29,955 bases of DNA. It comes from a virus. The DNA is taken from positions 1-29,955 of IMG/VR virus record IMGVR_UViG_3300017740_000045; one strand, 5' to 3'. The notes beneath the pieces are model-generated. The model was not told where the DNA came from. It worked only from the letters and a program-made list of their open reading frames with translations, and searched no databases. Shown here piece by piece: positions 417 through 29,636 of the stretch (within the stretch, counting starts at the first letter, position 1; each line of letters opens with the position of its first letter). The position numbers were made by a program, and so were the translations under genes.

Positions 417-457
417 TCTATTAGTAACTTTTGTACTTCGGGATTTCTCTCCCAGAT

Positions 458-1887: not shown

Positions 1888-1900
1888 GTTAAAACCTACA

Positions 1901-4217: not shown

Positions 4218-4239
4218 ATATTCACAAGTTTCCTAACTG

Positions 4240-4246
4240 TATTTAG
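4240..4246 (-). promoter_or_regulatory. Late-promoter-like motif CTAAATA upstream of gp13
   Basis: The minus strand reads CACCCTAAATACAG over the stop of the 128-aa gene. The CTAAATA ends 23 nt before the gp13 ATG, a spacing close to that of the AATAAATA motifs before gp8 (20 nt) and gp25 (22 nt). Motif and position evidence only. Confidence 0.35.
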
Positions 4247-4629: not shown

Positions 4630-4801
4630 CTACTATTCCTATTAGTTTCATTGTTTCTTGCTGCTTATAATATAATTTGCAAAAAGATTTTGCAATATTT
4701 TTTAATTCTTCACGATCATCACAACTATCTATCTGTGATGCAATCTTAGTATAAGCAAATTGCTTTGATAAGTTACTTAGTTCTATAGTATCAGGATCCA
4801 T
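4619..4801 (-). CDS. Conserved small cyanophage-type protein, unknown function
   Basis: A 60-aa protein starting MDPDTIELSNLSKQFAYTKI. It is predicted mostly helical and acidic in its first half, with two Cys (within D-S-C-D-D-R-E-E-L and K-S-F-C-K-L-Y-Y-K-Q-Q-E). There is no signal peptide, membrane segment or known catalytic motif. The pattern D-D-R-E-x-L-K-x-x-A-K-x-x-x-K-L-Y-x-K-Q-Q is one I associate with small conserved ORFs of T4-like cyanophages, always without assigned function. The ATG at 4801 overlaps the preceding stop by 11 nt and has a strong AAGGAG ribosome site, which supports both the gene and its start. Virion part, chaperone or regulator are all possible. Confidence 0.8.
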   Translation of the reverse strand: MDPDTIELSNLSKQFAYTKIASQIDSCDDREELKNIAKSFCKLYYKQQETMKLIGIVDGN

Positions 4802-5015
4802 GTATTAACTCCTTTAATAGAGATTTAATTTCGTTTAATTCACTTTTCATATTAGCAAAATCATCTTCAATGTTTTGTATCTTATCATTCTTTTCAGATT
4901 TGACTTCACGTCTCGCAAGATACTGTTTGTATTCTAAAGTGTTAACATTGACTACCGCATTGGTTACGGGATCTCTTGCGAGATCCTTATGACCATCCAA
5001 ATCGTAAAAATCCAT
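4791..5015 (-). CDS. Small coiled-coil protein, unknown function
   Basis: A 74-aa protein starting MDFYDLDGHKDLARDPVTNA. The N-terminal third (D-L-D-G-H-K-D-L-x-R-D-P-x-T-x-A-V-V-N) resembles a conserved cyanophage small-ORF opening. The rest is charged with heptad-like leucine and isoleucine spacing (I-E-D-D-F-A-N-M-K-S-E-L-N-E-I-K-S-L-L-K-E-L), indicating a coiled coil from about residue 40 to the end. I chose the ATG at 5015, one base after the DUF4815 stop (TAATATG). A TTG at 5030 would extend it by five residues into the upstream gene but has no better ribosome site. The coiled coil suggests an oligomerising or adaptor role (inference). Confidence 0.8.
   Translation of the reverse strand: MDFYDLDGHKDLARDPVTNAVVNVNTLEYKQYLARREVKSEKNDKIQNIEDDFANMKSELNEIKSLLKELIHGS
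4809..4814 (-). promoter_or_regulatory. Ribosome binding site AAGGAG for the 60-aa gene
   Basis: The minus strand reads AAGGAGTTAATAC directly before the ATG ending at 4801. This is one of the few strong Shine-Dalgarno sequences in the window and it fixes the start of the 60-aa gene inside the preceding gene's last codons. Confidence 0.7.
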
Positions 5016-5016
5016 A

Positions 5017-12552: not shown

Positions 12553-12558
12553 AATTCT

Positions 12559-14112
12559 TTAGAACTGCAAAATAACTTTTATGTCTTCCTTTTGGTTTGA
12601 CGATCTTGTAATAGATGGTCTGTTATCAACGTAAATTATATTACCAGAATGTTTTTTAACCTCTGGGTTGGCAACACCACTCGCAAAGGTTTGACCAAGA
12701 TAGTATGTACGATTATTTATTACCGTAGATATACCTGAGAAGTTTTCATCAATAGTCAAATTTACTCCCGTAGATGGTGTAATTGTTAATGCTCCACCTG
12801 TTCCTGGAGATGATGTAAACTCCTCTAGACTAAATCCATATTGAGGTTGAGTCTGAGCAGTTCCTACAGTATTAAATCCGACAAGAGATCTGTCTTGCCA
12901 GTACTTAAGAACTCCAGTATTTTGATCATAACTTACAACCCTACCAACAGCTGTTGATCCTGTGGATATTGTTTGAGTGAAATACGAATCTGCAGTAAAT
13001 GTTGCAGTGCTATATCCAGATCCAACTAATTTTAATGCTCCAAGAGCACTGGCTTTATCTGCAGAGAGGATACTTGAAGATCCAAATTGCTCAGGATTTT
13101 CTACAACACCAACTCTGGCAATTTGATTTCCAGTTATAAAATCTGGATTGTTGTTATCATTTTCAATTCTAGAATACATGAGAACATTATATGCTCCCAA
13201 TTCTCTATATACATCTGCACCATGTCCACCTTGAGGTGACATTATAACATTAAAAGTTGGTCTTGTTGTTCCTGTTGGAACTCCGCCTGCTTCCAAATCA
13301 ACATTACCATATGTATAATCAGATCCTTGATTTGAAACAGTAACCCCACTTACTTGTTGATTTCCATCAATAATAATAGTGCATTCTGCTCCTGACCCAT
13401 CACCTTTAATTGGGACGGATGTGTATGTGGAGTTTGCAGTTCCAAGTCCAACACCTTTATTAGTAACAGTTACAATTTTAATTGAACCATCGACTGCATT
13501 ATCTCTGACTGCAGCATTATCAGTGGAAGTTGCCCAATCTGATGGAACAGGTAGATAATCTGTAGACTCAAATTTGGCAACATCGCTTGGTTTAATACTA
13601 AAAAGGTATTTCCAAATATAACCATCACCACTGGTTCCTGCAGATCTTGGTTCTAAATCTGTAAATGTTGGTTCATCAAGAGATGGTCTTCCGGAAGGAT
13701 TATCTACATCAAGTCCATTTTGAAGACAAATATAAACCCTAAAATCACTATTCATAACAAAATAATTTGCCAGATATAGTGATGTTGAACCGGAAACTAC
13801 AGCAGTATTGGATCTACTATAATCATGACGATACATGTCATAACTTGTTCCTGAGGACCAAACAAGTTTGGGTACAACTTGTCTTACATCAGCAGTATTG
13901 ATTTTTTTCAAGGCCACCATGGTGTCCCAATAATCATTTTCCTGATCAAAATTGTCTTTAGGTGATGGTGGATCAATATCCCAATCAACCTGATAATCTT
14001 CAGGATTAGTCAATCCAATAAAAGAATAATATGAATTGCTGGCATTAGAAACACCAGCAACAAAATTCTTTGCATTTAATATTCTAATCTGATCAGTTAT
14101 AATAGCAGCCAT
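12559..14112 (-). CDS. 8: gp8 baseplate wedge subunit with insertions
   Basis: A 517-aa homologue of T4 gp8 (334 aa), a dimeric baseplate wedge protein that binds gp7 and gp10 in T4. The G-D-G-Y-I-W-K-Y-L-F-S-I-K-P block at about residues 162-175 matches T4 G-D-G-Y-V-W-E-Y-L-F-E-I-P. The C-terminus H-S-G-N-I-I-Y-V-D-N-R-P-S-I...I-K-V-I-L-Q-F matches T4 H-S-G-E-M-I-Y-M-E-N-R-P-P-I. Two stretches have no T4 counterpart by eye. The first, residues ~205-285, carries G-D-G-S-G-A and Q-G-S-D-Y repeats. The second lies at ~345-480 between V-V-E-N-P-E-Q-F and the C-terminal block. The ATG is preceded by an AATAAATA motif and no clear ribosome site. The next gene begins 6 nt downstream. Confidence 0.92.
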   Translation of the reverse strand: MAAIITDQIRILNAKNFVAGVSNASNSYYSFIGLTNPEDYQVDWDIDPPSPKDNFDQENDYWDTMVALKKINTADVRQVVPKLVWSSGTSYDMYRHDYSRSNTAVVSGSTSLYLANYFVMNSDFRVYICLQNGLDVDNPSGRPSLDEPTFTDLEPRSAGTSGDGYIWKYLFSIKPSDVAKFESTDYLPVPSDWATSTDNAAVRDNAVDGSIKIVTVTNKGVGLGTANSTYTSVPIKGDGSGAECTIIIDGNQQVSGVTVSNQGSDYTYGNVDLEAGGVPTGTTRPTFNVIMSPQGGHGADVYRELGAYNVLMYSRIENDNNNPDFITGNQIARVGVVENPEQFGSSSILSADKASALGALKLVGSGYSTATFTADSYFTQTISTGSTAVGRVVSYDQNTGVLKYWQDRSLVGFNTVGTAQTQPQYGFSLEEFTSSPGTGGALTITPSTGVNLTIDENFSGISTVINNRTYYLGQTFASGVANPEVKKHSGNIIYVDNRPSITRSSNQKEDIKVILQF

Positions 14113-14131
14113 TTGACGGACTTTTTTTCTT

Positions 14132-14139
14132 TATTTATT
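14132..14139 (-). promoter_or_regulatory. Late-promoter-like motif AATAAATA upstream of gp8
   Basis: The minus strand reads CTAATAAATAAAG in the 32-nt gap between the giant gp7-like gene and gp8. It ends 20 nt before the gp8 ATG, which would leave a leader of roughly 15 nt. It matches NATAAATA, the T4-type late consensus reported for cyanomyoviruses. Confidence 0.55.
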
Positions 14140-14144
14140 AGAGA

Positions 14145-17100
14145 TTAAAGATCATAATTTTTAAATTTTAGGAAGTTTGATCTAACGACCATAGTCGCAG
14201 TTGAAATTCCAGATCCTTCTGCATAAGAAGAATAAGAATTTTCTTTACTTCTTGCTGCTATGTCAATTCTTCCCCAACTAAATGATCCAAAGAAGTCTGA
14301 GGTTGTAATTCCAGAGGATCCATAGTTGAATTGATTTACCTTGGCAAACACCCTACGTACATAAGTTGAAATTCCAGATATACTTGTGGAAATTGAAACT
14401 GCACTGTCAACTTCATAAACATTATCTGCAAAAACAGTTCCTAGTCCTACTGTGCTATCTGAGGCATCTAGGGATAATATAGAAGTTGAGCTAGATCCAA
14501 CATTAGAATTTTTAACAACAAAGTAATCATTTTTACTAATAGAACTAATTGTTAATGCCGTTCCTGCGATATTAGAATCTCTAAGGAAAGAATCATATGG
14601 AATGTGAATATCAAAAATAAGTTGTGTTCCAATTCCAACAGTGGTTGTCCCAAATCCAACAATTACACCATTATCTCCAGAGTAGGTATTTACAGATACC
14701 TCTTCAGTATTATGTGATGGTGGTGCGATTAAAACAACAGGAGCACTAGTATTAGTATATCCAGTTCCAGCATTGGTTATTGTTATACTTGTAACAACTC
14801 CTGCAGTAATAGATGATGTTGCGGTCGCTGTCGTTCCAAGTCCAACTGATTGAACTGTACTTCCAATAGTCACTACTGGAGCAGAACCATATCCTGATCC
14901 TCCATTAGAAATAGATATTGAGGATATTGTTCCCAATCCAGTAACAATAGCAGTTGCAGCTGCACTTACTTTGGAATCTTGTGAAATAAATTTAATTTTC
15001 TTTTGGAATGTTAAATCAGTATCATTCTCATTTTGAGAATCAAATGTTGGTCTCAAACTATCAACATATATTGCTGTAGATCCAACTCCAACAGATTTTG
15101 TAATATATGCACTAGGATTAATGACTGGTTCATAAAGTTCTCTATTTTTACCAATAGCAATCTGATCAATAAATATGTCTTCAGTCTGTTTGCACCAAAC
15201 AACTGGTCTTTCTAAAGTAACATCTTTAGTATTTCCAGGTCCAGAATATGAATTAGTTTGAACTATATTTGTAGATTTGATTAAATCCACAACTCTCTCA
15301 TCTTCATCCAAAGATGATGCTTGTCCAAGTGATGCATCATGTTTAATTTGAAGGGTATCACCCTTTTTAACAGTTTCAATTGTATTTCTAAAGATTACAT
15401 CAATATCTCCTGTTCCCTTATAGAACATAATACTAACAGAATCACCAACCTTCAATCCTTCAGTAAATGTTACAATACTTCCTCCATCAAAAGTATATCC
15501 TTCACCAGGAACTTGAAGTATGTTATTAACAAAGATAAGAAGAACATCTTGGACATTAATCTTAGATCCTTTTCCAGAAACAATTGAAATTGAGTTTCCT
15601 GCTAGAGACAGTGGGAAATTTTTTCTAGATCCATCAATAAAATCATTAATATCGTCTAAAACTTGCAATTGTCCAATAGACCAACCAGCAAATTTGTCAT
15701 TAATAACTTCATCTATGGTAATTTTAAACTCAGAGAAGGATGAAGTTGTTGGTATTCCTGTAGATCCACCAATTGGAACAGTTAATATTTCACCATTTCC
15801 AAATCCATATCCAGTATTTTTAATTGTAAAATCAATAACACTTGATCCTTGACCAACAACAATATCAACTACGGCACTGGTTCCAATACCAACGGAACTG
15901 GAAGAATATTGTAATGGAATATTTGAATAACTTAATGGGTCATCAAACACAACAAATGGTTGATTTGTTGATGTGTATCCAGACCCTGGATTTGTAATCG
16001 CTACACTTACAATATTACCACCACTAATAGCAGCGGTTCCGATAAATTCAATGTTTCCAGTTCCAGTGCTAGAAGTTCCAACACCAACATTAACTATAGT
16101 TTGAATTCCAACCCTATAACCAGAACCACTATTTCCAATACTAATCGAAGAAATAGTTCCAAGACCAGAAATTATAGCAGTTCCTCCAGCAGAAATTAGA
16201 GGTTGATATCCAAGACCTGCATCTGAACCTACTGAAACAATAATTCCCCCTTTAGGAAAACTAGAAATACCTACATCGGGACCAAGTGGAACTGTATTAG
16301 TTCCTTGGAAAGCGATTGAAGAAATACCCGATGATTCTGCAATTACGTATCCACTATTCAATCCAGGTGTTTGGAAAACATCATTAACTAAAATAACTGC
16401 ATTCTCAGTGGAAATTCCAGAAACATTTGAATCATTTTGTTCCAAAGTAAATTCGTTTGAAACAGCATTAAATTGACTTGATATATTATCAAAAATATAA
16501 TTTTTATGATAAGAATCATCAGAAGTATTTTGTACTCCAGATCTCATAAAACTTCTACCTTGGAAACTAGAACTTGTTGTTATACCAGTCCAATCTCTTT
16601 CATCTGGTGGATTTGTGGTAGATCCAATTGGAACATTTCCAAATGGTGCTTCTACAAAGTTTAAAATATTATCAATAATATTATAATTGCCAGAAATTTT
16701 AGTTACAAGAGTTCCCGTCCCATATCCAGACAAGACAGTTCCCAACCAAGGTCTACGAACTCTAATGGTATTTGTACTTCCAATACCTACACCTTCTATC
16801 TTCATAATCTCATTACCAATCTGAATAATATCAGATCCAAAGAAAGATGTAATTCCGCTAAATTTAATTACATTATCAACAGATTGAACTCGATCAGCAA
16901 GTACTGTTGTTACTGCTGTAGATACAACAGGAGACTGAATAACATTGTCAATAGCAACAATAACTTTAGCATTTTGATTTGTTGCTATGAATCTATGAGA
17001 AGTTCCAATACCAACACTTTCAAGATCTACAACTACTGGTATCGATTTGAGTGCATTTTCTGCACTGGTTGCAATTTTAATTAAATTATCATCAACTTTT

Positions 17101-20100
17101 ACAGCATATAAATTTTCATCTGGAAGGAATGTGGTGTTAGAAGTTCCAACAAAACTTGCTGTCGCAATACCAATGGCAGATGAAGCCGTTCCTACATGAT
17201 TATATCTAATTTTTTCTCCACTCACAAAGAAATGATTTGGAATTTTAATAGAGTTAGTTGTTACATTTATAACATCACTACTATTACCTAAGAAATATCT
17301 TTCAAAGATTTTTTCATTTTCATGAGTTAGTTCAAATTCTCTCTTAATATCATTATCTGTTCCAAAATATTCTCCAATAGAATCATTAATAGTTGCATTT
17401 GTAAAAGATATTTCAGATGCTAAATCAGTATTTTCATTTACAGATAAAGCATTCATGCATACATTGACCACTGTATTAATACTTGCATTTGGAGTAAATA
17501 CAAGAGATACAGTTCCTGCTGCAGAAACTCTAGATCCAAAGGTTCCAAGACCAGAAGCAGTTTCGATATTTGCATATTCAGTCATGTAAGTTTCACGACC
17601 TTGAGTAGTATCAACATAATCATCAACAACCACTATTTCAGACAACTGAATTGAAGAGTTGGTCGTATCAGTAACTTGAACTACAAAATATGCTCCATCA
17701 AAATTATTTGGATAGTCGGCAACGGTATTAATTCCAGGAGATCCCGATGAAGGTATGGTAGTAGTTCTTCCTTCAATTTGAGATCTTCTGAGATTTATTG
17801 TGCCAATTCCTGTAAAAGTATTACTAGAAAGTCCAACAACAATAGTGTTTATTGCTCCAGTTGTTGCAATACCAACAGCAGTTGGAATAAAATCTACTTT
17901 TAGATTAGTTCCGTCAATATATGCATGATATGTTCCAAGACCAGTTTCAGAATACTCTCCAATACTCGTTGACAATCTTCCATACTCTAACAATTCAATA
18001 TCAGATCCTTTATGAATAATATTTAATTCAGTTGCTTCAAATTCATCATTTCTTGAAATGTCTGGGTTAATATTAACTAGAACTTTTGCACTTGAATATG
18101 TGTGTCCAATTGAAACAATTGTCTTAGTTGTATTTGATGGTATTTCAATACTATCAGTATCAATTAGAACAACTCCACCAAGACTTGTACTGCCGGTTCC
18201 AAGTACAACATCATCCAAATTATATGAAAGTGTAGAGACATCATAATCATTAACTGAAGAGTTGACTGGGTGGAATTCCAAACGTCCATCAGTTCCAGTA
18301 ATCGAGAAGTCAAAAGAACCTTGATCATATGCAGTTTCAACTCTAGCATATTGATTCATGTATGCTCTAGAATTGTCATGAAGAAGATCAACAAGCATCA
18401 ATTGTCTTTGAGCTACAAATCTCTTATCTCTTATGTAAGTAATATATTTTTGGAATCTATTTGATGTGATTGCAAATGTATCAACAATACTAAAATCCGT
18501 TGGTCTTGGATTACTATTAAACTGACCACTAATATCATCAATTGATAAAACTCTATTTCCAATAGATTCGAAATAATCCGTTAAAATTCTATTTGAAAAT
18601 ATAATCTCATTAGAAATAAACTTAGAATTTTGAGATAAATTATTTTCAGTAACTAAATCAAAATCATAGACGCAATTTAAACTTGCAAATCCGTCAAGTT
18701 GATTGACTGCATTAACACTTGTAGTATTTGTTGTAAGTCCAACAGACATTACATTAGTGTTTTTTGTTTCCAGTTGATAATCAGAGAATTTTTTAAATCC
18801 TAAAGTATGATTGAGACTAGCAACCGAATCCTCCCAAGTGGAATATGGAACTTTTGATTTTAAAGAGTATGAGAAGTTTTGATAATAAAAACTATCTTGA
18901 ATTTTTTGAAGGTCATTATTTAAGAATCCAATATCATTTTGCCATCCTTTGATATCTTTTGAAAATGCATCTAAATTTATATAAACATCAAAACATTCTA
19001 TAGAAGATGCGATTCCTTGAGTTTTGGAACTAGATCCTTCTACAATCTCCCCAATAACAAATTTTTCAGAAGAAGAAACTCTAAGAATACCAGTTTTACT
19101 ATTCCAACTATCTACAATTCCTTTTGCCGAATCAGAAATTGCAGGTTCTCCTACAATATAATTATTTGTATTCAGTTCTACCTCAAAGGATGGAAAATGT
19201 TTCTGAGCAAGAATTTTTCCTGAAGAATTTACAGAATCAAATGTACCTACAATTTCCCCACTAGAAGTAAACTCAGACATATCAAATGATACATCTCCAA
19301 TACCACCAAGATTTTCATTGGTTGAAGTTACAGTAAACAACTGATAATCATATGCAGAAGAGTTATACCCCTTACCAGTTGATCCAACACCAACACTTAC
19401 ATTTTCAATTAAAACTTTATCTCCAGTAGTAAATGGGAAAGAATTGACTGTACTAAATCCTACGGATAAAGTTGCTGTTGCTATTCCTGAAGATGAATAA
19501 ACAATACTATTAATACCAACTCCAGCCCCACTTTCAGTTGGAATAATGGTTGGAGCAACAGCATTCATTCCTTTTGTATTTTCAAGAATCTCTACATTTG
19601 ATTTTCCTACAGTTACTTTTAAATCAACATCAGAAACAATCTTATTAGTTCTACCATCAAGAACAACTAATTTTGGAGGAATTGAAAATCCACGTCCAAA
19701 GGAAGTAATACCAATAGAATTAAACGATGCAAGAGAATTAATTTTTATAACTTGTGGTAAAATAGCGGTTGGAGTTAGAGTTTTATCAGATGGATAGTTA
19801 AATCCAATATCTTTAAGTGAAATTGATTTCACAGATCCAATACCAGAACCAACTGTTTCAAGTATTGCTCCATTACCAGCACCTGTTGTAACCGTGGTTA
19901 TTCCTGGCAGTGAGTAATAGTTTGAACCAGAATTTGTGATTTCAATTTTTGCAATTGGCCCATAAGTGTGGGTACAATCTGTTTCATAGGAAATATCAGA
20001 AGATGATCCATAGGATGATTCTTCGGGAACATCTTTAACAGAATATGTAAATGATGTAGTCGTTCCTACAGTAATTACATGTTTTCCATTGTAACCACTT

Positions 20101-23100
20101 TCTTTTGAGTTTATTTCATTTCCAGAAATAACTTCACTATCAACGAATATCCCTTCTTTGACTTCTGGAACATTAGTTTCTTTTACAACATCTAAAGTGT
20201 AATATAAAATTTGTGGAATATCTTTATTGACTGTTAATGTTGCTTTTGCACCAGAAGTTCCAACTTTACCATCTTTGATCAATTCAAAGTTGGAATTTAC
20301 TTTAGATGTATTCCAAACTTTAGTTAGATTTTTATCTGAATATAAATTAAATTCAAATGCGGAATAAGTTGTCCCTTGATTAGAGAATGCAAGCGATGGA
20401 TCTGATAAATCAAATTCAACTGTGGAATCTTTATATAAATCAATTGGTGGATTTATTGGATTGATGGTTCCATCAGAAGTACTTGTTATACTAACAACTT
20501 CTGGTTTATCTTGAATTGAGTTAAAATAAGTATTTGATAATTTTATTGTATTTCTATCTACACTGACAATATAGTATATTTTTTCATTTTCCAATCCTTC
20601 AGATGAAGTTGTGGCCGTATGAATTACCTTATCACCAGTTTCAAATCCATGATTTGGTAGTGAAATTGTATTTGTGGATGTATTGACTCCAGCAGTTGCA
20701 AATCCAATGGGATTGACTACAATTCTAGAATTATAGTCATTATATTTTACTGTTACTATACCAGTGTTTTGTGGGTTGACAGATACAAATATATTATGTG
20801 GAGAACTTAATCCATGAGTTGTTGCTGTAGAAACTGTGACCAAATTCCTTTGAACATTACCAGTAATTACATTATAGTTTGTGGTAAAACTGTGAGTATC
20901 TCCAGTACCTACTGTCCTAAAGAATAGCGTAGATGAGTCTGTATTTGCTCCTCCAACAAAACTTCCAGTAGTTCCAAGACCAACTCTAATAGTTGCGATT
21001 CCAATCAAATCTTCAGTTATTTTTGCAACAAATAATGTTTGACCATTCGTTAATGTTATTCCAACTCCAACATTGGTTTCATCTTGAACAATAATACCAT
21101 TTCCACCAGTTCCTGGAGAATATGTTAATTGATCTCCAGTGTTAAGGTTATGATTTTTGATAAAAATACTCTTAGTCGGAATAAATGCTTGAGTTGCACC
21201 AGATCCTGGATTTGCAAAAGAAATTGTTGTTCCTATCCCAACACCAGCAGTGGTTCCAAGTCCAACAGCACTTGCTGGATCAAAATAAATTTGCTTGTTT
21301 AGAGAATATGCATAATCAGTTTTAAATCCTGCATTAATTTTAATCTTTCTTGGATCTTCGTAGATGTGCTTACCGATGGTGTGAGAAGCACCTGTAGTCC
21401 CCTCTACTGCCCTCAAAACTCTAATTCTAGAGGATAGGGCATCTACGTTTAATACTTTAACTTTCTCTGTTCCAACACTAAGAATATCATTTTCTCTAAT
21501 GTTGGGATAATCTAAACTTCCATTGACTCTAAAGTAAGTGACGATACCAGTTACTCCATCAGTTCCTATAGCTACACCAGTGCTTCCTACTCCTGCTATA
21601 GTTAATCGATTAGTTTGAATTCCGGCGCTATAAGTTCCTTCAATTTGAGACGATGTTGTGGACAATCCAGAAATTGAAATCGTATCTATGTTTGTAAAAT
21701 TATGAGGATTATTGGCAAATATTAAATATTCACCTTTTTTCTCTCCAGGATAAAATTCAACATTTTCAATAATACTTGATGCAACACTAATATTACTTAC
21801 ATACTTTCCTTTTAATCTGCTTATTTTTGCAGATACATGATTTCCTCCAGTCCCATCATTATTAAATACCAACTCCTCATTAACTCTATATTCACTACCA
21901 CCAGTTGCTATACCAATACTTGAAATTTTTCCTGGAGTAGTTGCTGAAACTGTAGACGTTTGATTAAATTTATTTGGAATATACAAATATGGATATTCGG
22001 AATCTTCTTCAATTAAGTTAAGTGGTTGAGTATTTCTCTTCCATCCATTTGTTTCAATATCATAACCATCTTGATTTGATCCAAGTTCAAAATTAAATTC
22101 ATTAGGAATAGATTGATAGTTTTCTCCTATAATATATGGAAACACTGGTTCTCTATATTTTTCAAAAACTCCTGAAGTTGAAGAGAATTGATCATTAACG
22201 GTCATAAAATATGCATATGTTCCTTCTGGATAATCAGGTGTCACACAGAATCTTCCATTATTAATATCAAGTACGGAATCATCAGAAACTTCATTGTGAG
22301 TGTAATCTTCTACAAAAAATCCTTCAGGAAAAATTGAAGTTGATGGTCTACCATTTTTTAAATCTAGTTTATATCCAGACTTCATCGGGGATATTATTCC
22401 GCCAGTTTTTGTTTTATATCCATATGGTCCATAAATTGGATTGCCATCATATGCAAATCCAATAATTGGAGAGTGTTCATCTGATAGTTCTTCAACACCA
22501 TCAATTTTCTTTAAATCAGATTCTGCATAAAGAAGTTCTCCATCCTGATTTACAGAGGAAATAGATTCTCTCAACACTCTTGGGGCATATAAATGGCAGT
22601 ATTGAAGTCCATAATTGCCATCAGATATAATACCATCATCTTTAGAAAAATATGAGAAGTATTTTTGATATAGATTTACTCTCCAAGATTTGATATTTGC
22701 CTTAAACTCTGGTAGTACTTGAGTAGATCCTGAAGTAATTACATCAATTGATGTATTATCCTGAGAATATCCACCACCAGATTCTATGACATTTATAGAT
22801 ATTAAAGATCCATTCTCTACAATCGGTGTAAGAACACATCCAGAACCATCACCATTAACAATGAGGTCTGGGATTGAAAAATATTTACTACCAGAATTTA
22901 AAACAATAACTTGAACAATTCTTCCATTACTTAAAACTGGTTGGACTTGTGCATTAATACCAGAATCTAGTGTTATTTCTGGTTGATAATCCAAATTAAT
23001 AATATCAGAAGATCCATACCCAACACCAGTATTTTCAAGATGAACTGAGGTTATTTCACCTCTAACAACTGGTCGAATTTTTGCTTCAAATGTTTCTAAT

Positions 23101-26100
23101 CCTACAGAAGATATTCCAACTTTACCAATAAGACTTACTGAGATTTCTGGATAATTAAATACATGGGTTCCAACTCCAATAGAAGTTATATCAATATACT
23201 GCTTTGTTCTATAATAAAATTCTCTATCAGATTCTGACCCAATTTGGGAAAGATTAAATGAATTATCATCTACCTTAGTCACATAATATTCAGTGTTTGT
23301 AGAAAGTCCAGAAGCTATAGTTCCAACATGAGTATACTTTACAGTCTCTCCAGATTTATAATCATGATTTTCAATCTTAATTAAATTTGAAGACGTGCTG
23401 ATTCCAGATTCGGCAGATGCTGTTCTTTTCTTATTCTCATATCCAGATCCACCATCAACAATATTAATTGAATCAACGATTAATTTTTTACCTACAGATT
23501 GTAAAGAATGCCTACCAATACCATATGATGTCAAATATACTGTATTGATTCCAGAGATAGCATCTCCCTCGGTTCTATGCAATCTAACAGTTACATTATC
23601 AATAGTAGAAACAAAATATGATGAGTTAGTAACTATGCCAGCAATTCCACTTTGATCAGATGTTTTATAAATTACCTGTTCTGCATTTTTAAATTTATGA
23701 TACGTAGAAAATCCAATCCTAGATTGTGCTGATGTTGTGCCAATAACAACTTGATTTGATGATACATCTGCAAAGAAATCTGCATTATGGTTAACTTTTT
23801 TCATGTTAACTTGGCCAATTGCCCCAGATCCATTTCCACCAACAATTTTTAAAGTAGGAGTTTCTTCATAATCAAATCCAGGATCTATAATTTTAATTTC
23901 TTCAAAAGATCCAGAAACTGCAACATATCCTGTTGCTCCAGATCCAACAGAGTCTTTAATTATCAAATCAGGAACATTTATAGCATCAATATTAGTTCCT
24001 CTAGCAAGAACTTCAATATTTTCTATTTTACCATATTTAATTACATCTTTTGATTTGTAATTTAAAATTTCTACTCCATTAACTAAAATACCAGTAAAAC
24101 CAGATTTAGTTTCATTAATAGATCCATCGTCAATTGGATTAGAAATTTTTCTAAGTAATTTTTGAGGATTTAATTCTTTTCCATTGAATTGATATGGTTT
24201 AATTGTACTATTAGATACTGTAGTTTCTTCAGAAAGAGATACAAAGTTTGAGTTAAGTATATCATTTCTGCTTTTTGCAAACTTTATAGTAAATCCATCA
24301 ATTCTTTTTATAAAATACAATCCATCATCAAAAAGTCCAACACCTCTTACTTCTCTTGTAACAGAACTCCCTGACGCATCAATGTAGTTTTCACTAACAG
24401 TTTCTGCGGAATAATAAACAGTGTCTCCAGTATATAATCCATGTTCTTTTCCTGGACTAATTTTAAACTCACTTCCACTAAAAGTTCCAGAAAAAATAAC
24501 TTCTCTAATAGATAAATCTAATGGTTGTTTATTATAATTTGGAATAGATGGAGATGCAATTAAATAATCGCTACCATTTTTATATACATTACTAACATCA
24601 GTTGCATATTGGAAAATATTAGTAAAAACGTTGGATACGCCTTTCTGAATGATTCTTTTAATTTTATAAGTTAAGTTTAAATTTAAAAATCCTTGACCTT
24701 TGATAGTAAAAGACTTATTAGAAATTATATTAAATATATTTGTTTTCTTTTCATTACCTACACTTTCAATTAAATTGGCAGAATCTCCAGATTTGAAGTT
24801 ATGCTCAACATTCAAAGTTATTTTATAAGTATTATCTGATGAATCTAATAATTCTAATTTACTTACTTTGTATGAAGGTGCTACATTATAAAACCACTTA
24901 TTTGTTTTAAGGTTGTTCTCAGAGCATCCAAGAGTTGAAATATTAATAATTCCACCCTTTATTAAATTATTGGTATTTTCTACCAATTCAACATCACTTA
25001 AAACAGAGTTAACTCTGACTTTAATAATTTCATCCTGATCTAAATTAGATCTACCATATGCAAAAGTATTAACTCCTACAGTAGAAGCATCAGATATATT
25101 TCCTGTTACGTTTGTGATTCCAAAAAATTGAGTTAGAGATTTTGATGTATACGACACTACTCCTGTGGTGGTATCATCGTAACTGACATATAATTCTCCG
25201 GTAGATCCAAATCCAACGGTAGAATCTACATCAATTGATATAGAATCCGTAGATACATCTCCAATAACTTTAGTAGAAGGTTCTACTGCAAATTTACCAT
25301 ATAATGATCCATTAACATTAATATCTCTATTATATCCACCATCAAAACTAATCTTATAGAAAGTTTGACCATATCCAACCGATATTTTTTCAACATCAGT
25401 TATTGGAGAATATGCTTTCCCTATTTCACTATCAAACTTATATGCATCTTGATATAATGTTGCATTTTCTAAATTTGAAGGGTCTCCTTCTACTGCTTCT
25501 ACAACTAAACTATTAACAATTCTATATTGAGCATCAGAAGGTGCAACTAGAAAATCTCTAGGTTTAATTATTTGTACATCTTCATTATATAATGCTTTAA
25601 ATAAAATTTCAAACGATATATCTGTGCCCTTACTTAGATAAAAGTCTTTTGACTGTTTTATAAAAAGATTTTGATCTAATTCTGGAGTTAGTGATCTTTC
25701 TTCAAATCCAGGTGCTAATTGATGTTTTGTTTTTAATAAAAATTCTTTTAAAAATAAACAACTTAAGTTTTTAATTGTAGACTTATCTTTATGATCTTCA
25801 GATTCAGTTTCTTTAAATACTACTTCTTCTTTATTCAGTTCACTCTTGTATGAAGTGATTCCAACAAATCCTCTAATACATCCAGTAAACGAAAACTCAG
25901 TTTTTCCAGTATATGTAATTACTTCATCATCTATCTGCAAAAGACCATAAGAATCTGGAAACCCATTAGTTCCATATGGAGATCCTGCAACATCAACATT
26001 TATAGTTTCCGCATCAAACTCAATATCCCCATTTAACAATACAGATTCATTCAAATTTGTAGTATTATCTAATTTGATATATCTGTCAATATTTTGAATC

Positions 26101-26240
26101 AGATCAACTGGTCCACCTTGATACTCTTGCCCAAGATAATACTGTTTTAAAAATTGAGATATAAGAGGATAATCTTCCTGCACATAAGTGGGAAGTTGGT
26201 TAGATACGATAGTATTAAACTGAACTCTAGTTTCTGACAT
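14145..26240 (-). CDS. 7: Giant gp7-type baseplate wedge protein with repeat modules and YHYH domain
   Basis: An uninterrupted 4031-aa frame, about 40% of the window, between gp6 and gp8. Two blocks resemble the C-terminal third of T4 gp7 (1032 aa), the wedge initiator. One is K-D-F-Y-L-S-K-G-T-D-I-S-F-E-I-L-F-K-A-L at about residues 195-214 (T4 Y-D-F-Y-S-T-K-G-I-E-A-S-Y-K-F-L-F-K-V-L). The other is S-L-K-S-K-V-P-Y-S-T-W...H-T-L-G-F at about 2459-2480. About 2,200 residues lie between them: many HGhxxGD modules, GxGY modules and a YHYH-type domain (about 1180-1345, with I-G-F-A-Y-D-G-N-P-I-Y-G-P-Y-G-Y). A further ~1,550 residues follow, with more modules and a conserved R-S-G-V-Q-N-T block near 3240. 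The ATG at 26240 has only a weak purine-rich site upstream. Assignment to gp7 rests on synteny plus remembered motif similarity. Confidence 0.85.
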   Translation of the reverse strand: MSETRVQFNTIVSNQLPTYVQEDYPLISQFLKQYYLGQEYQGGPVDLIQNIDRYIKLDNTTNLNESVLLNGDIEFDAETINVDVAGSPYGTNGFPDSYGLLQIDDEVITYTGKTEFSFTGCIRGFVGITSYKSELNKEEVVFKETESEDHKDKSTIKNLSCLFLKEFLLKTKHQLAPGFEERSLTPELDQNLFIKQSKDFYLSKGTDISFEILFKALYNEDVQIIKPRDFLVAPSDAQYRIVNSLVVEAVEGDPSNLENATLYQDAYKFDSEIGKAYSPITDVEKISVGYGQTFYKISFDGGYNRDINVNGSLYGKFAVEPSTKVIGDVSTDSISIDVDSTVGFGSTGELYVSYDDTTTGVVSYTSKSLTQFFGITNVTGNISDASTVGVNTFAYGRSNLDQDEIIKVRVNSVLSDVELVENTNNLIKGGIINISTLGCSENNLKTNKWFYNVAPSYKVSKLELLDSSDNTYKITLNVEHNFKSGDSANLIESVGNEKKTNIFNIISNKSFTIKGQGFLNLNLTYKIKRIIQKGVSNVFTNIFQYATDVSNVYKNGSDYLIASPSIPNYNKQPLDLSIREVIFSGTFSGSEFKISPGKEHGLYTGDTVYYSAETVSENYIDASGSSVTREVRGVGLFDDGLYFIKRIDGFTIKFAKSRNDILNSNFVSLSEETTVSNSTIKPYQFNGKELNPQKLLRKISNPIDDGSINETKSGFTGILVNGVEILNYKSKDVIKYGKIENIEVLARGTNIDAINVPDLIIKDSVGSGATGYVAVSGSFEEIKIIDPGFDYEETPTLKIVGGNGSGAIGQVNMKKVNHNADFFADVSSNQVVIGTTSAQSRIGFSTYHKFKNAEQVIYKTSDQSGIAGIVTNSSYFVSTIDNVTVRLHRTEGDAISGINTVYLTSYGIGRHSLQSVGKKLIVDSINIVDGGSGYENKKRTASAESGISTSSNLIKIENHDYKSGETVKYTHVGTIASGLSTNTEYYVTKVDDNSFNLSQIGSESDREFYYRTKQYIDITSIGVGTHVFNYPEISVSLIGKVGISSVGLETFEAKIRPVVRGEITSVHLENTGVGYGSSDIINLDYQPEITLDSGINAQVQPVLSNGRIVQVIVLNSGSKYFSIPDLIVNGDGSGCVLTPIVENGSLISINVIESGGGYSQDNTSIDVITSGSTQVLPEFKANIKSWRVNLYQKYFSYFSKDDGIISDGNYGLQYCHLYAPRVLRESISSVNQDGELLYAESDLKKIDGVEELSDEHSPIIGFAYDGNPIYGPYGYKTKTGGIISPMKSGYKLDLKNGRPSTSIFPEGFFVEDYTHNEVSDDSVLDINNGRFCVTPDYPEGTYAYFMTVNDQFSSTSGVFEKYREPVFPYIIGENYQSIPNEFNFELGSNQDGYDIETNGWKRNTQPLNLIEEDSEYPYLYIPNKFNQTSTVSATTPGKISSIGIATGGSEYRVNEELVFNNDGTGGNHVSAKISRLKGKYVSNISVASSIIENVEFYPGEKKGEYLIFANNPHNFTNIDTISISGLSTTSSQIEGTYSAGIQTNRLTIAGVGSTGVAIGTDGVTGIVTYFRVNGSLDYPNIRENDILSVGTEKVKVLNVDALSSRIRVLRAVEGTTGASHTIGKHIYEDPRKIKINAGFKTDYAYSLNKQIYFDPASAVGLGTTAGVGIGTTISFANPGSGATQAFIPTKSIFIKNHNLNTGDQLTYSPGTGGNGIIVQDETNVGVGITLTNGQTLFVAKITEDLIGIATIRVGLGTTGSFVGGANTDSSTLFFRTVGTGDTHSFTTNYNVITGNVQRNLVTVSTATTHGLSSPHNIFVSVNPQNTGIVTVKYNDYNSRIVVNPIGFATAGVNTSTNTISLPNHGFETGDKVIHTATTSSEGLENEKIYYIVSVDRNTIKLSNTYFNSIQDKPEVVSITSTSDGTINPINPPIDLYKDSTVEFDLSDPSLAFSNQGTTYSAFEFNLYSDKNLTKVWNTSKVNSNFELIKDGKVGTSGAKATLTVNKDIPQILYYTLDVVKETNVPEVKEGIFVDSEVISGNEINSKESGYNGKHVITVGTTTSFTYSVKDVPEESSYGSSSDISYETDCTHTYGPIAKIEITNSGSNYYSLPGITTVTTGAGNGAILETVGSGIGSVKSISLKDIGFNYPSDKTLTPTAILPQVIKINSLASFNSIGITSFGRGFSIPPKLVVLDGRTNKIVSDVDLKVTVGKSNVEILENTKGMNAVAPTIIPTESGAGVGINSIVYSSSGIATATLSVGFSTVNSFPFTTGDKVLIENVSVGVGSTGKGYNSSAYDYQLFTVTSTNENLGGIGDVSFDMSEFTSSGEIVGTFDSVNSSGKILAQKHFPSFEVELNTNNYIVGEPAISDSAKGIVDSWNSKTGILRVSSSEKFVIGEIVEGSSSKTQGIASSIECFDVYINLDAFSKDIKGWQNDIGFLNNDLQKIQDSFYYQNFSYSLKSKVPYSTWEDSVASLNHTLGFKKFSDYQLETKNTNVMSVGLTTNTTSVNAVNQLDGFASLNCVYDFDLVTENNLSQNSKFISNEIIFSNRILTDYFESIGNRVLSIDDISGQFNSNPRPTDFSIVDTFAITSNRFQKYITYIRDKRFVAQRQLMLVDLLHDNSRAYMNQYARVETAYDQGSFDFSITGTDGRLEFHPVNSSVNDYDVSTLSYNLDDVVLGTGSTSLGGVVLIDTDSIEIPSNTTKTIVSIGHTYSSAKVLVNINPDISRNDEFEATELNIIHKGSDIELLEYGRLSTSIGEYSETGLGTYHAYIDGTNLKVDFIPTAVGIATTGAINTIVVGLSSNTFTGIGTINLRRSQIEGRTTTIPSSGSPGINTVADYPNNFDGAYFVVQVTDTTNSSIQLSEIVVVDDYVDTTQGRETYMTEYANIETASGLGTFGSRVSAAGTVSLVFTPNASINTVVNVCMNALSVNENTDLASEISFTNATINDSIGEYFGTDNDIKREFELTHENEKIFERYFLGNSSDVINVTTNSIKIPNHFFVSGEKIRYNHVGTASSAIGIATASFVGTSNTTFLPDENLYAVKVDDNLIKIATSAENALKSIPVVVDLESVGIGTSHRFIATNQNAKVIVAIDNVIQSPVVSTAVTTVLADRVQSVDNVIKFSGITSFFGSDIIQIGNEIMKIEGVGIGSTNTIRVRRPWLGTVLSGYGTGTLVTKISGNYNIIDNILNFVEAPFGNVPIGSTTNPPDERDWTGITTSSSFQGRSFMRSGVQNTSDDSYHKNYIFDNISSQFNAVSNEFTLEQNDSNVSGISTENAVILVNDVFQTPGLNSGYVIAESSGISSIAFQGTNTVPLGPDVGISSFPKGGIIVSVGSDAGLGYQPLISAGGTAIISGLGTISSISIGNSGSGYRVGIQTIVNVGVGTSSTGTGNIEFIGTAAISGGNIVSVAITNPGSGYTSTNQPFVVFDDPLSYSNIPLQYSSSSVGIGTSAVVDIVVGQGSSVIDFTIKNTGYGFGNGEILTVPIGGSTGIPTTSSFSEFKITIDEVINDKFAGWSIGQLQVLDDINDFIDGSRKNFPLSLAGNSISIVSGKGSKINVQDVLLIFVNNILQVPGEGYTFDGGSIVTFTEGLKVGDSVSIMFYKGTGDIDVIFRNTIETVKKGDTLQIKHDASLGQASSLDEDERVVDLIKSTNIVQTNSYSGPGNTKDVTLERPVVWCKQTEDIFIDQIAIGKNRELYEPVINPSAYITKSVGVGSTAIYVDSLRPTFDSQNENDTDLTFQKKIKFISQDSKVSAAATAIVTGLGTISSISISNGGSGYGSAPVVTIGSTVQSVGLGTTATATSSITAGVVTSITITNAGTGYTNTSAPVVLIAPPSHNTEEVSVNTYSGDNGVIVGFGTTTVGIGTQLIFDIHIPYDSFLRDSNIAGTALTISSISKNDYFVVKNSNVGSSSTSILSLDASDSTVGLGTVFADNVYEVDSAVSISTSISGISTYVRRVFAKVNQFNYGSSGITTSDFFGSFSWGRIDIAARSKENSYSSYAEGSGISTATMVVRSNFLKFKNYDL
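22180..22710 (-). other. YHYH-type domain within the gp7-like protein
   Basis: Residues of about 1180-1345 contain I-I-G-F-A-Y-D-G-N-P-I-Y-G-P-Y-G-Y and, about 55 residues later, L-D-I-N-N-G-R-F-C-V-T-P followed by P-E-G-T-Y-A-Y-F. This is the layout of the YHYH family (G-x-A-x-D-G-x-P-I-Y-G-P-Y ... N-G-x-x ... Y-H-Y-H). The histidines of the naming motif are replaced, giving Y-A-Y-F, so any metal- or ligand-binding role of those residues is probably absent. Domain limits are approximate. Confidence 0.65.
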
Positions 26241-26257
26241 GTTATGATTTTATCTTC

Positions 26258-28342
26258 TTAGTATGAGATTGAACCTGATGAGGATGATCCAGATGTAGAT
26301 ATGGATGTTTGTGTTGATGTTTGTGTTGATGTGGATGCCTGTTGAGTAACTACATTAGAAGTAGAAGCAGAAGAACCTCCAACTCCATTTCCAGTTACAA
26401 TATTTGTATCCGGACCCCCAGAACGGACTAGATTACCATTTGAGTAACTAGAAGATACAATATAACTTGATGCAGATGGATCTAATCCAGATGCTATATC
26501 ATCAACAACAGTTTCAAAAATACTGCTACTTATATCTAGTTGCAAATAAAGATCCTGTAATCCAACAACATCATTTGAAGTTGGAGTTGCTTCAATTTCA
26601 ATAACTGATTGACCATCTTTAGTCTTTCCAGCCAAAACATTTACTGGATTTAAAGTAACAGTGCCACTTACATAATTAATTGTTCCAACATTACGTCTTA
26701 CAATAGTTGGTGTTTGAGACCCTACTGATGGTAATGTGAACAAGAACAAAGATCCTGTTACTCTATTTGTATCAGGTATATCTGATAGATATACATTTGA
26801 TTGAACTCCAGCAATTCTAAATGCTGAAGTCTTAATGTTATACCCACTCATATTTTTAATATGAAAAGAATTTCCAAAAGAAATTTGATATTCTGCGAAA
26901 GTGTCTAAAACAACTCTCAAATCTCTTCTCATTGCCACAGTTGTGATATTTGAAGTCACTGATTCATGACTATCATCAACCATTTTTAAGAATTTACTAT
27001 ACTTAAATCTTGCACCATATTTGTTTAGCTCAGTTGACTCAGAATATTTTGTCGTATTGTTTTGAACAATAGTAGAAACATATGCAGATGATGGTGCAAA
27101 ATTAGTATTGTAGTAAATTTTTGTATTTACTTCCAGATACAAATATTTCAAATCTAAAATCTCTGGTACAATACCAGCAACAGAATATTTCTTCAATTTT
27201 GTTTTAATATTTTCTTTGATCAAATTAGGAATAAAATCACCAAATCTTGGTTTAATACTAATGAATACCTTACCATATTGTGGTGGAACTAATTCCTCAC
27301 CACCAAAAACAGAGATTGATTCAGTTTCTGGATAAATTTTTGCGGGAATAATCGTTTCATAGTCATTTGCAGTTAATGCTCTATTCTGAGAAGCATAAAT
27401 TCTTGGTGCAAACTTCTTAATCGACTCTACACCTTCAATAGATTCTCCCCCAGATGCAGATATTCCTGTAGTTAGAAGTGAAATACCAGCAGTTACTGTA
27501 TATTCTTGAGAATTTCTTGTATAAACCAATCTTCCTGCAAAAGTAAATTGATTTACTCCATTTGCAGCATCACCACTAGATGTAATATAATTTACAGTAA
27601 TAAAATTATTATCTTCAAGTTTATTTCCAAAAATACCATCACCAAAAATAACTTGATATCTTTCATCTTCAACTTCTTGAAGGTAATATACTTTAGAATC
27701 AGATTTGATGTCAAAAAGACTATCTTGGCGACTATATGTTACACTCTTAGTTGATTGTTCATTTGGTCTTACACTAACTGATATTAGATTAGTATCAATT
27801 CCTGGATTTTGTAAAACAAACTTTTGATTTGGAGTTCTTGCACTATTTGTAAAGTTTGAAGTTAATAGACTTCCTTCGTATATGAAAATATCATTAAATG
27901 ATGCAATAGAATCAACAACAGGGACTGTTATATCTTCTAGTATACAGAAAGTATATGACTGCCTACCAAAAGAACCTTGACTAGTAGATACAATACCTTT
28001 CTTAAGAGTGATTGTACTAGGTACAGGTGTTATATTTGATGTATCAACGAAAAAACTAACAGTTGATGATGCTGCTTTTCTTGATCTGGGAAGATATCCA
28101 ATATTTCTTGCTAAAGATACGACATTCTCTCTTAATGTCGCACTATCAATAAACACTTCGTTTGCGACCATGTTCGCATTGTATGAAGTGATGTAGGTGT
28201 TATATGCCAAAACATCGAGGATTGTTGAAAGGTTAGACCCTTCAAAATCATAGTCAGTGAAATTGGAGTTTTCCTTTAGATATTCTCTAAGTGTTGTTTT
28301 AACCTGACCAAAGTCTAGGTTTGTGAAATTAGCTAGTGGCAT
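26258..28342 (-). CDS. 6: gp6 baseplate wedge subunit
   Basis: A 694-aa homologue of T4 gp6 (660 aa), the wedge backbone that dimerises to join neighbouring wedges and surround the central hub. The N-terminal signature F-T-D-Y-D-F-E-G-S-N-L-S-T-I-L-D-V-L-A-Y at about residues 27-46 continues with N-T-Y-I and is nearly identical in pattern to T4 F-L-D-Y-D-F-E-G-S-R-L. L-A-R-N-I-G-Y-L-P-R-S near 77-87 matches T4 A-Q-D-N-G-Y-L-P-T-S. A-L-T-A-N-D-Y-E-T-I near 323-332 is also family-typical. The last ~55 residues form a Ser/Thr/Gln/Gly-rich tail encoded partly by a 12-bp tandem repeat; T4 gp6 has no such tail. It starts 2 nt after gp25, with the AGG of the gp25 C-terminus as ribosome site. Confidence 0.95.
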   Translation of the reverse strand: MPLANFTNLDFGQVKTTLREYLKENSNFTDYDFEGSNLSTILDVLAYNTYITSYNANMVANEVFIDSATLRENVVSLARNIGYLPRSRKAASSTVSFFVDTSNITPVPSTITLKKGIVSTSQGSFGRQSYTFCILEDITVPVVDSIASFNDIFIYEGSLLTSNFTNSARTPNQKFVLQNPGIDTNLISVSVRPNEQSTKSVTYSRQDSLFDIKSDSKVYYLQEVEDERYQVIFGDGIFGNKLEDNNFITVNYITSSGDAANGVNQFTFAGRLVYTRNSQEYTVTAGISLLTTGISASGGESIEGVESIKKFAPRIYASQNRALTANDYETIIPAKIYPETESISVFGGEELVPPQYGKVFISIKPRFGDFIPNLIKENIKTKLKKYSVAGIVPEILDLKYLYLEVNTKIYYNTNFAPSSAYVSTIVQNNTTKYSESTELNKYGARFKYSKFLKMVDDSHESVTSNITTVAMRRDLRVVLDTFAEYQISFGNSFHIKNMSGYNIKTSAFRIAGVQSNVYLSDIPDTNRVTGSLFLFTLPSVGSQTPTIVRRNVGTINYVSGTVTLNPVNVLAGKTKDGQSVIEIEATPTSNDVVGLQDLYLQLDISSSIFETVVDDIASGLDPSASSYIVSSSYSNGNLVRSGGPDTNIVTGNGVGGSSASTSNVVTQQASTSTQTSTQTSISTSGSSSSGSISY
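26304..26327 (-). repeat. 12-bp tandem repeat in the gp6 C-terminal tail
   Basis: Two perfect tandem copies of gatgtttgtgtt (plus strand), with a partial third copy adjoining, encode Gln-Thr-Ser-Thr repeats. The unit is a multiple of three, so copy-number slippage would change tail length without breaking the frame. Confidence 0.8.
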
Positions 28343-28344
28343 TT

Positions 28345-28746
28345 TTACCTAGTTTGTTGCAAAACAAATTGTAATTCTTGTGGTGGTATATCAGCTCCAA
28401 TAATTTCGTATGTTAGAACAACATCAAAACTATTGTTATCAAAATCAGGAGAAGTTACAACTTTTACTGTATCAACCCTTGGTTCAAAGTTTTCAATAGA
28501 TTCAGTAATTTGATCTTTAATGATTAATGCTGATAATTCATCAATATTATCGAAAAGTGATCTGTTGATGTTAGATCCAAACGATTCATCGAAAAATTTC
28601 TCACCAGGGATTGTAAATACAATGTTTCGTATAGAACGAGCAATTGCATTTTCATTTTTAAGTGTAATAATATCACTAGTCAGAGGATTACTCTGAAAAG
28701 TCATACTGATATCCTTAAAACCCTGACTTACCCTTTCTAAAGGCAC
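28345..28746 (-). CDS. 25: gp25 baseplate wedge / sheath initiator protein
   Basis: A 133-aa homologue of T4 gp25 (132 aa), the lysozyme-like-fold wedge protein that seeds sheath assembly. Landmarks are N-E-N-A-I-A-R-S-I-R-N-I-V at about residues 30-42, G-E-K-F-F-D-E-S-F-G-S-N near 48-59 (T4 G-S-R-P-F-D-P-E-F-G-C-D), and the hallmark E-P-R motif in I-E-N-F-E-P-R-V-D near 87-95. The start codon is GTG (plus-strand cac at 28744-28746), unusual in this window. No good ribosome site is visible, but an AATAAATA late-promoter-like motif lies 22 nt upstream. The gene precedes gp6 by 2 nt, so the two are almost certainly co-transcribed. Confidence 0.94.
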   Translation of the reverse strand: MPLERVSQGFKDISMTFQSNPLTSDIITLKNENAIARSIRNIVFTIPGEKFFDESFGSNINRSLFDNIDELSALIIKDQITESIENFEPRVDTVKVVTSPDFDNNSFDVVLTYEIIGADIPPQELQFVLQQTR

Positions 28747-28786: not shown

Positions 28787-28963
28787 TCAAAATTCATTGA
28801 GTGTCATTGGATCAGTCTCTGAGATGACTTCATCAACCTCAAAAAGGTCAGTTTCCTTAAGGGAATCACGTTTTTTGGGTGTCTGATTGTCATTTGCAAT
28901 CTCACGAAGCATCTTCTGATGCTGATTATTCGCTAAATTGTCTAAAAAATCATGATTTTCCAT
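28787..28963 (-). CDS. Small acidic protein, unknown function
   Basis: A 58-aa protein starting MENHDFLDNLANNQHQKMLR and ending D-P-M-T-L-N-E-F. It is hydrophilic and acidic overall, with a basic patch (P-K-K-R) in the middle and no Cys, membrane segment or signal peptide. The frame is open further upstream to 29110, but that part lies within the 228-aa gene in another frame. The ATG at 28963 has a good AGAGGA site, so this start is preferred. It overlaps the end of the 228-aa gene by 14 nt. I do not recognise a family. Confidence 0.75.
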   Translation of the reverse strand: MENHDFLDNLANNQHQKMLREIANDNQTPKKRDSLKETDLFEVDEVISETDPMTLNEF

Positions 28964-29636
28964 CAGTTTCCTCTGTTTTTGGTAGATTTTCTCTTTCTTT
29001 TGCTGTTTTCCAAAAATATTCGTCTTCACGACCCATTCCAAGTCTCTCAAAACCATTTTCAACTTGGTAATATTCAGTCGAAACCTTAAAATCAGGCATT
29101 TTTGGTTCAACAGGTGTTAAACTATTATCAAAAATACGCATTCTATTATTTGGATACAATGCATATTGCCCATTATCTAGTTCGATTAGATTATGTGACT
29201 TATGTTCTGCTGGATTCTCACTTGTTGCATAATCAATCACATCAGGATCTTGATGATAGTTGTCTAATGTACAAACATATGTACCTTTCTGTATGCCAAA
29301 GTCTCTTGTATACAATTCATAGTCCATACTACCAATAAATTGCTTACATGTTGCAACAACACCATAATCCATACAGTTCCAGAACTGTAGGTTAGGAAGG
29401 TCCATATCGGGGTCTGGGACCTCTGGAGACGAGAGGAAGGCACTAATAGGTAGTTTATCATACATTGCGGCATATTCAGGTAAATATGTCTCAAAATAAA
29501 AAGTGCGCCCAGGCATCGATTTACACGATACCCAAACGCCTTTTACAAATTCACCATGACCACTTTGATGGTCAGTTAGATATTCTTTACGTACCCATAC
29601 TTCCACTGCAGGAAGATTGCATATAAGTGCAGCCAT
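28950..29636 (-). CDS. Conserved cyanophage-type protein, unknown function
   Basis: A 228-aa soluble protein starting MAALICNLPAVEVWVRKEYL, rich in aromatic residues and Asp/Tyr. Distinct blocks are P-G-R-T-F-Y-F-E-T-Y-L-P-E-Y near residues 43-56, Q-F-W-N-C-M-D-Y-G-V near 84-93, G-T-Y-V-C-T-L-D-N-Y-H near 118-128, and H-N-L-I-E-L-D-N-G-Q-Y-A-L-Y-P-N-N-R near 147-164. The overall pattern is one I associate with a conserved T4-like cyanophage protein of unknown function. No enzymatic motif or membrane segment is evident. It lies upstream of gp25, separated by the 58-aa gene. There is no strong ribosome site before the ATG. Being next to structural genes makes a virion or assembly role possible but unproven. 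Confidence 0.85.
   Translation of the reverse strand: MAALICNLPAVEVWVRKEYLTDHQSGHGEFVKGVWVSCKSMPGRTFYFETYLPEYAAMYDKLPISAFLSSPEVPDPDMDLPNLQFWNCMDYGVVATCKQFIGSMDYELYTRDFGIQKGTYVCTLDNYHQDPDVIDYATSENPAEHKSHNLIELDNGQYALYPNNRMRIFDNSLTPVEPKMPDFKVSTEYYQVENGFERLGMGREDEYFWKTAKERENLPKTEETDGKS
28969..28974 (-). promoter_or_regulatory. Ribosome binding site AGAGGA for the 58-aa gene
   Basis: The minus strand reads AGAGGAAACTG directly before the ATG ending at 28963, inside the 3' end of the 228-aa gene. It decides the start over the longer upstream open frame. Confidence 0.65.

Follow-up and report, generated by a model that had tools for sequence, protein, structure and literature searches.

Genes at the locus

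The window, which is the whole 29,955-base IMG/VR virus record that was analysed, carries the following baseplate genes:

5017-12552, minus strand: VrlC-type protein, 2,511 aa (DUF4815, PF16075, E 1e-52; VrlC in relatives)
12559..14112, minus strand: gp8 wedge protein, 517 aa (phrog_438, E 1e-163; Pfam Phage-Gp8, E 3e-16), with two GSGY beta modules
14145..26240, minus strand: gp7-type baseplate wedge protein, 4,031 aa, calculated mass 434 kDa, no internal stops
26258..28342, minus strand: gp6 wedge protein, 694 aa (phrog_219, E 2e-187; Pfam Gp6 domains)
28345..28746, minus strand: gp25 wedge protein, 133 aa, named by its position and size and by its S-SM2 counterpart

The gp7 gene sits between those encoding gp6, which would be the expected partner of its product, and gp8 in the baseplate operon, and the gene order gp25-gp6-gp7-gp8-VrlC is conserved in relatives. 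The PHROG profile search assigned the window gp7 to phrog_2885 (baseplate wedge subunit) with an E of 0 and 3,861 bits. The alignment comprised residues 1-3393 against positions 5-3359 of the 4,179 in the profile, together with a second stretch, and covered nearly the whole protein. An assembly artefact or a chimera was ruled out by end-to-end alignments, both to independent contigs (3,649 residues, 93-95% identity) and to the gp7 of the cultured Synechococcus phage S-SM2 (4,029 residues, 51% identity). The VrlC-type protein is itself very large for a baseplate protein. The run of structural genes also holds small ORFs at 28950-29636 (228 aa) and 4243-4629 (128 aa), the latter of which looks by eye like a small beta-sandwich protein.

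Homology of the two conserved blocks to T4 gp7

A preliminary description of this DNA had considered the ORF to be a gp7 with a very large, module-rich insertion splitting its core, and the BLASTP, HMM and hhalign comparisons given below confirmed it. That proposal was founded on two T4 gp7-like blocks placed near residues 201-217 and 2460-2480. Both blocks proved to be real, at slightly different positions: block 1 (KGTDISFEILFKALYNE) occupies residues 204-220 and block 2 lies at about 2462-2482. By plain BLASTP, the stretch 193-224 containing block 1 aligned with T4 gp7 727-758 at 53% identity (pairwise E 3e-6), and block 2 was found within a match of residues 2395-2507 to T4 gp7 816-909 (E 1e-3). 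HMMs of the corresponding core pieces, named B and C, were then built from non-T4-type sequences only. The B HMM matched T4 gp7 at 724-758 (30.5 bits, E 2e-10) and the C HMM at 862-890 (13.1 bits, E 7e-5), that is, in the T4 order, and both also picked out the equivalent positions in the gp7 of four other Straboviridae. The best scores among 2,000 shuffles of T4 gp7 641-1032 were 5.5 and 7.2 bits for the two HMMs.

The profile alignments with hhalign agreed with the preliminary expectation of homology to T4 gp7. The region B+V of the window protein (162-325) aligned with T4 gp7 731-829 with an E of 2.4e-11, running through Pfam domain V of gp7 (T4 766-861), which corresponds to window residues of about 225-325. 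The approximately 100 T4 residues between the two blocks, formerly regarded as a spacer, are therefore mostly homologous domain V, which rules out domain V of T4 as the counterpart of the insert. Piece C aligned with T4 gp7 865-890 (E 3e-4) with a probability of only 39%, which makes it the weakest link. When the compact gp7 family was used instead, the values were 1.2e-27 for A+B+V, A being the N-terminal piece of the core, and 2e-17 for C; the homology of C to T4 gp7 rests on these compact relatives and on its position. Both the SKGT-type helix and beta domain V of the T4 gp7/BW3 family and, downstream of domain V, the C element (S..W...H..GF) are present in the window gp7.

A phmmer search of the whole window gp7 against PDB sequences gave no match, and a profile was required. 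Pfam Gp7 domains were not found in it up to an E of 1. Neither the N-terminal region of about 640 residues of T4 gp7 nor its domain VI was found in the window gp7, whose chain begins directly with A, and BLAST against T4 gp7 1-640 gave nothing above chance level.

Core pieces and insertion points

The gp7 chain was divided into the following pieces, whose boundaries are good to perhaps ten residues:

26061..26240, minus strand: core piece A, residues 1-60, predicted to be helical; all compact gp7s have an N terminus matching HMM columns ~6-60
25761..26060, minus strand: small insert, residues 61-160, an alpha module of ~100 aa absent from most compact relatives
25266..25760, minus strand: core piece B+V, residues 161-325, with the SKGT-motif helix (204-220) and beta domain V
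18978..25265, minus strand: giant insert, residues 326-2421 (2,096 aa, about 226 kDa), beta-rich modules
22104..22706, minus strand: YHYH-type domain in the insert, residues 1179-1379 (Pfam PF14240)
18747..18977, minus strand: core piece C, residues 2422-2498 (IQDSFYYQNFSY...STW...NHTLGF), located by HMM and hhalign
14148..18746, minus strand: C-terminal extension, residues 2499-4031 (1,533 aa)
17451-18581, minus strand: three tandem repeats of ~125 aa after C, residues 2554-2930, within the C-terminal extension

As read from these profile matches, the core is shown to run in the order A, B+V, C, to be cut by about 100 and about 2,100 aa, and to be followed by about 1,530 aa more. The insertion had been estimated at about 2,200 residues; its large size stood, and the figure itself had to be lowered to 2,096 aa since domain V had been counted as spacer. 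Likewise, the split between V and C held, and a second one, the insert 61-160 between A and B, had been missed. The long C-terminal part previously put at about 1,550 residues was also found, with 1,533 residues following C.

In the phages Desulfovibrio phage 7757, BUCT-ZZ01, pf16, Cr30 and DLP6, A directly abuts B, and some 50-490 residues lie between domain V and C. The distance from V to C is roughly 50-500 residues in compact relatives, and the order A, B+V, C was present in 154 viral contigs with measured V-C gaps of 100-502. The insertion point is defined because these compact relatives carry the same pieces with short V-C gaps. In T4 gp7, only about 33 residues lie at the true insertion point. 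For comparing gaps among phages, residues were counted from about 90 past the SKGT motif. By that count the V-C gap was 14-16 in T4-type phages, 91-489 in other compact gp7s, 1,468 in ACG-2014e, 1,498 in S-PM2 and 2,057-2,623 in the remaining cyanophages. The comparison of insert length across cyanophage gp7s that had been suggested at the outset thus gave about 1,470-2,620 aa in all those sampled. The split core is a general design of the sampled cyanophage gp7s and no oddity of the window contig. In phylogenetic trees all gaps above 1,000 fell in one clade, whose support was weak (FastTree 0.93, UFBoot 58), and a single origin of the giant insert is not claimed.

Composition of the insert and of the C-terminal extension

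With self-trained module profiles, about 11 GSGY beta modules were identified in the whole window gp7, together with six gamma modules and several alpha modules, in agreement with the repeat modules described earlier between the two blocks. The alpha module at 61-160 (profile match 90-159) is repeated at 327-415 (profile match 340-399), with a further match at 2034-2101. A YHYH-type domain had also been announced. The domain is there (PF14240 over residues 1254-1352, E 3.8e-22, 79.6 bits against a curated cut-off of 25), and one copy was detected in every cyanophage gp7 tested; the literal motif is not, the window gp7 reading YCHLY and the other cyanophage gp7s tested having none.

Most compact gp7s have between one and three GSGY modules in their V-C gap. 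The number of beta modules in the insert was 0-1 in Desulfovibrio phage 7757, BUCT-ZZ01 and pf16, 2-3 in Marzo, ACP17 and DLP6, and 7-12 in cyanophages. The Marzo module matched Pfam Gp18_dom_I (E 4e-5), and a profile comparison of the compact gp7 module with domain I of the T4 sheath protein gp18 gave an E of about 5e-6. No Pfam match to the gp18 family was obtained for the modules of the window gp7 itself, which share the GSGY profile with those of Marzo, and their link to the gp18 surface domain is made by way of these relatives. Besides gp7, the window gp14 (1927-3375) has four copies of the GSGY module and gp8 has two, and VrlC matches it weakly; one surface module is spread over several virion proteins.

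The genome of S-SSM7 has a second gene annotated as gp7, SSSM7_103 (26075-32867 in the stretch examined), with no gp7 core in the part read. This gene carries a homologue of window residues 3159-3628, a part of the C-terminal extension. Being a separate gene in S-SSM7, that part of the extension may be able to act in trans.

Structure predictions

The model of residues 1-1200 of the window gp7 had a mean pLDDT of 72, with values of 80-94 over most of 580-690 and 730-1180, and its insert part was all-beta. Within it, residues 318-392 resembled a tail tube protein domain from phage Mystique (Z 9.7, rmsd 2.1 over 75), and residues 452-531 resembled a common small beta barrel. In a Foldseek search of the PDB with this model, the highest-ranking matches were all low-probability multi-domain ones, followed by common small beta barrels; the matches listed did not include T4 gp7, which tells nothing either way.

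A compact natural relative was folded in place of the window core. The mean pLDDT of this model was 58.6, with C at low confidence, and its best PDB match was T4 gp7 (Foldseek E 6e-6). Residues 1-350 superposed on T4 gp7 642-879 with a Z of 10.3 over 193 residues; the rmsd was 24 A because the domains are placed differently. The module region of the same relative folded at high confidence and resembled the T4 gp18 surface domain 99-188 (Z 8.4, rmsd 2.7 over 77). In this model, the order and folds of the compact core pieces agree with those of T4 gp7.

Relatives and previous annotation of giant gp7 proteins

The closest described system is the gp7 of S-SM2, annotated as 'baseplate wedge initiator' (ADO97439, 4,156 aa), which belongs to phrog_2885 and has the same modules, split core and gene place as the window protein. 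No fundamental difference between them was found, and the annotation of S-SM2 is silent on the split core. In T4 gp7 (1,032 aa), the SKGT-type helix, domain V and the C element follow in the order of the window protein, and the gene order is the same, but it differs in having about 640 extra N-terminal residues and a domain VI after C, and in having no module insert. A complete A, B+V, C core was also found in the gp7 of the phages Marzo (Stenotrophomonas, 503 aa), ACP17 (Acidovorax, 482 aa), Melnitz (Methylophilales, 896 aa) and HTVC008M (Pelagibacter, 1,016 aa). Between V and C these carry one to three of the beta modules seen in the window gp7, but the insert is of about 170-460 aa as against some 2,100 in the window, and most of them are without the insert between A and B.

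The database name gp7 is already on the giant proteins of S-SM2, S-SSM7, P-HM2 and others, a known family to which the window protein belongs. Of the split core and its insertion point, no account was found in the non-subscription literature that was searched. The gp7s of P-RSM4, S-PM2, ACG-2014e and HTVC008M are labelled 'structural' or 'hypothetical' and have the same core by profiles. According to one paper, pelagi- and cyanomyophages have no T4 gp7 and use VrlC in its place (PMC7029224). Our profile comparisons do not support this statement, because the 1,016-aa 'putative structural protein' AGE60389 of HTVC008M (2936-5986 in the stretch examined) matched both the A/B/V profile (E 1e-35) and the C profile (E 2e-22) and adjoins gp8 and VrlC. 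Replacement of gp7 by VrlC was ruled out, as HTVC008M has both genes; the window VrlC gave no significant match to the B and C profiles. In the work of Sullivan et al., gp7 was assigned solely to the non-cyanophage core, and its divergence was remarked on (PMC3037559).

The presence of a giant chain in the virions of relatives is supported by proteomics. S-SZBM1 virions contain a 6,619-aa 'baseplate wedge initiator' detected with 71 peptides (PMC9146016), whose gene carries block B, and a 1,938-aa wedge protein of S-CREM2, assigned to gp7 by gene order only, was detected with 91 unique peptides (PMC10665884).

Proposed role of the split gp7 and alternative explanations

Six copies of gp7 are found in T4 (PMC3004832), where the protein joins two gp6 chains in a three-helix bundle and a triangular 'trifurcation', an arrangement shared by TssG and its two TssF partners (PMC6300606). 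The BW3 protein is the attachment site of receptor-binding proteins in most studied baseplates, with its globular middle and C-terminal parts turned towards the periphery (PMC10811340). The window protein is the gp7-type wedge protein (BW3, the counterpart of T4 gp7, TssG and P2 gpI) of a T4-superfamily cyanophage. Taking these data together with the profile matches, we consider it likely, as the simplest model, that the insert and the C-terminal extension make up the baseplate periphery. By analogy with T4, pieces A, B and C would fold back together with two gp6 chains to give the helical bundle and the trifurcation. The insert and the extension would leave this core as beta-rich arms directed to the baseplate periphery, where they could act as a docking platform for fibres. 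These arms would take over the job of the 640-residue N-terminal part of T4 gp7, which is missing here, and of gp10, gp11 and gp12, whose genes have been reported missing in cyanomyoviruses (PMC2984593). A single protein would then probably make up an outer baseplate for which T4 needs several. The peripheral position, the copy number in the window phage and the docking of fibres are inferred from the baseplates cited; no cyanophage baseplate of this type with a known structure was found.

Insertions in the wedge core holding a spike or a fibre are known in smaller form. Vibrio phage XM1 (gp17/gp16) has a gp7 ortholog whose domain I comprises residues 1-79 and 107-133, with the loop 80-106 binding a spike (PMC10457771). 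The wedge protein gp31 of Anabaena phage A-1(L) has an inserted domain to which the long tail fibre is attached (PMC10966104). The analogy is drawn from the published descriptions, and these insertions have 27-100 residues as against 2,100 in the window.

Three other explanations were weighed. It could be argued that the gp7 core is present in its first part only, block 2 being a chance resemblance, given that C is short and that its direct T4 match is weak, both in the pairwise alignment and in its hhalign probability. This explanation is largely refuted and hardly tenable: C is strongly conserved in compact relatives, always after B+V, the gp7s of all five Straboviridae were matched at the corresponding place by an HMM excluding them, and its score is well above those of the shuffles. 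The chain might also be cut after synthesis, so that the core pieces and the insert would be separate in the virion. Peptide proteomics is compatible with cut chains, and the separate gene for a part of the extension in S-SSM7 indicates that contiguity is not always needed. However, B/V and C share one reading frame in every full-length relative examined, and we regard such cutting as very improbable.

The insert could, finally, be mainly a host-recognition device, either an adhesin or a receptor-binding arm, and no structural platform. The YHYH-type domain in it belongs to a type considered as putatively host-recognizing (PMC7029224), and the wedge proteins of the BW3 family carry receptor-binding proteins (PMC10811340). 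Nevertheless, identity to the window protein among 38 relatives was 0.87 for A, 0.75 for B+V, 0.73 for C and 0.69 for the insert, and no hypervariable stretch appeared in the insert in 50-residue windows, the lowest of which was 0.54, unlike typical receptor-binding tips. In addition, other groups of cyanophages, freshwater ones included, keep the module order at 31-37% identity. A hypervariable adhesin finds no support in this conservation, and host recognition as the main function seems unlikely, although less so than cutting of the chain. The insert being nearly as conserved as the core, the comparison favours a structural periphery over a variable adhesin.

Beyond the structural periphery proposed for the window phage, the V-to-C junction may be a general growth point of contractile baseplates. 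A core of about 35 kDa would have grown module by module into a chain of about 430-720 kDa, giving a covalent outer layer (about 2.6 MDa for six copies here) in place of the T4 gp10-gp12 pins. We put forward this generalization tentatively, as a possibility for which the odds are somewhat unfavourable.

T4-like cyanophages rank with the most abundant viruses of the ocean, and their outer baseplate has been so far unexplained. The presence of gp7, the residue ranges of its core and the shared insertion point provide a testable model of the baseplate periphery. The natural gp7s also form a graded series, from about 15 to 2,600 inserted residues, in which it can be studied how a wedge core tolerates insertion. 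Finally, the core profiles can be used to name 'virion structural proteins' of several thousand residues. By these profiles, giant gp7s were recognized in the stretches examined of S-PM2 (S-PM2p081, 2073-11219), P-RSM4 (12168-28498) and ACG-2014e (11980-22467). In one annotation scheme, the cyanophage proteins bear different cluster numbers: 826 in S-PM2, 643 in P-RSM4, 507 in P-HM2 and 1204 in S-SM2 and S-SSM7.
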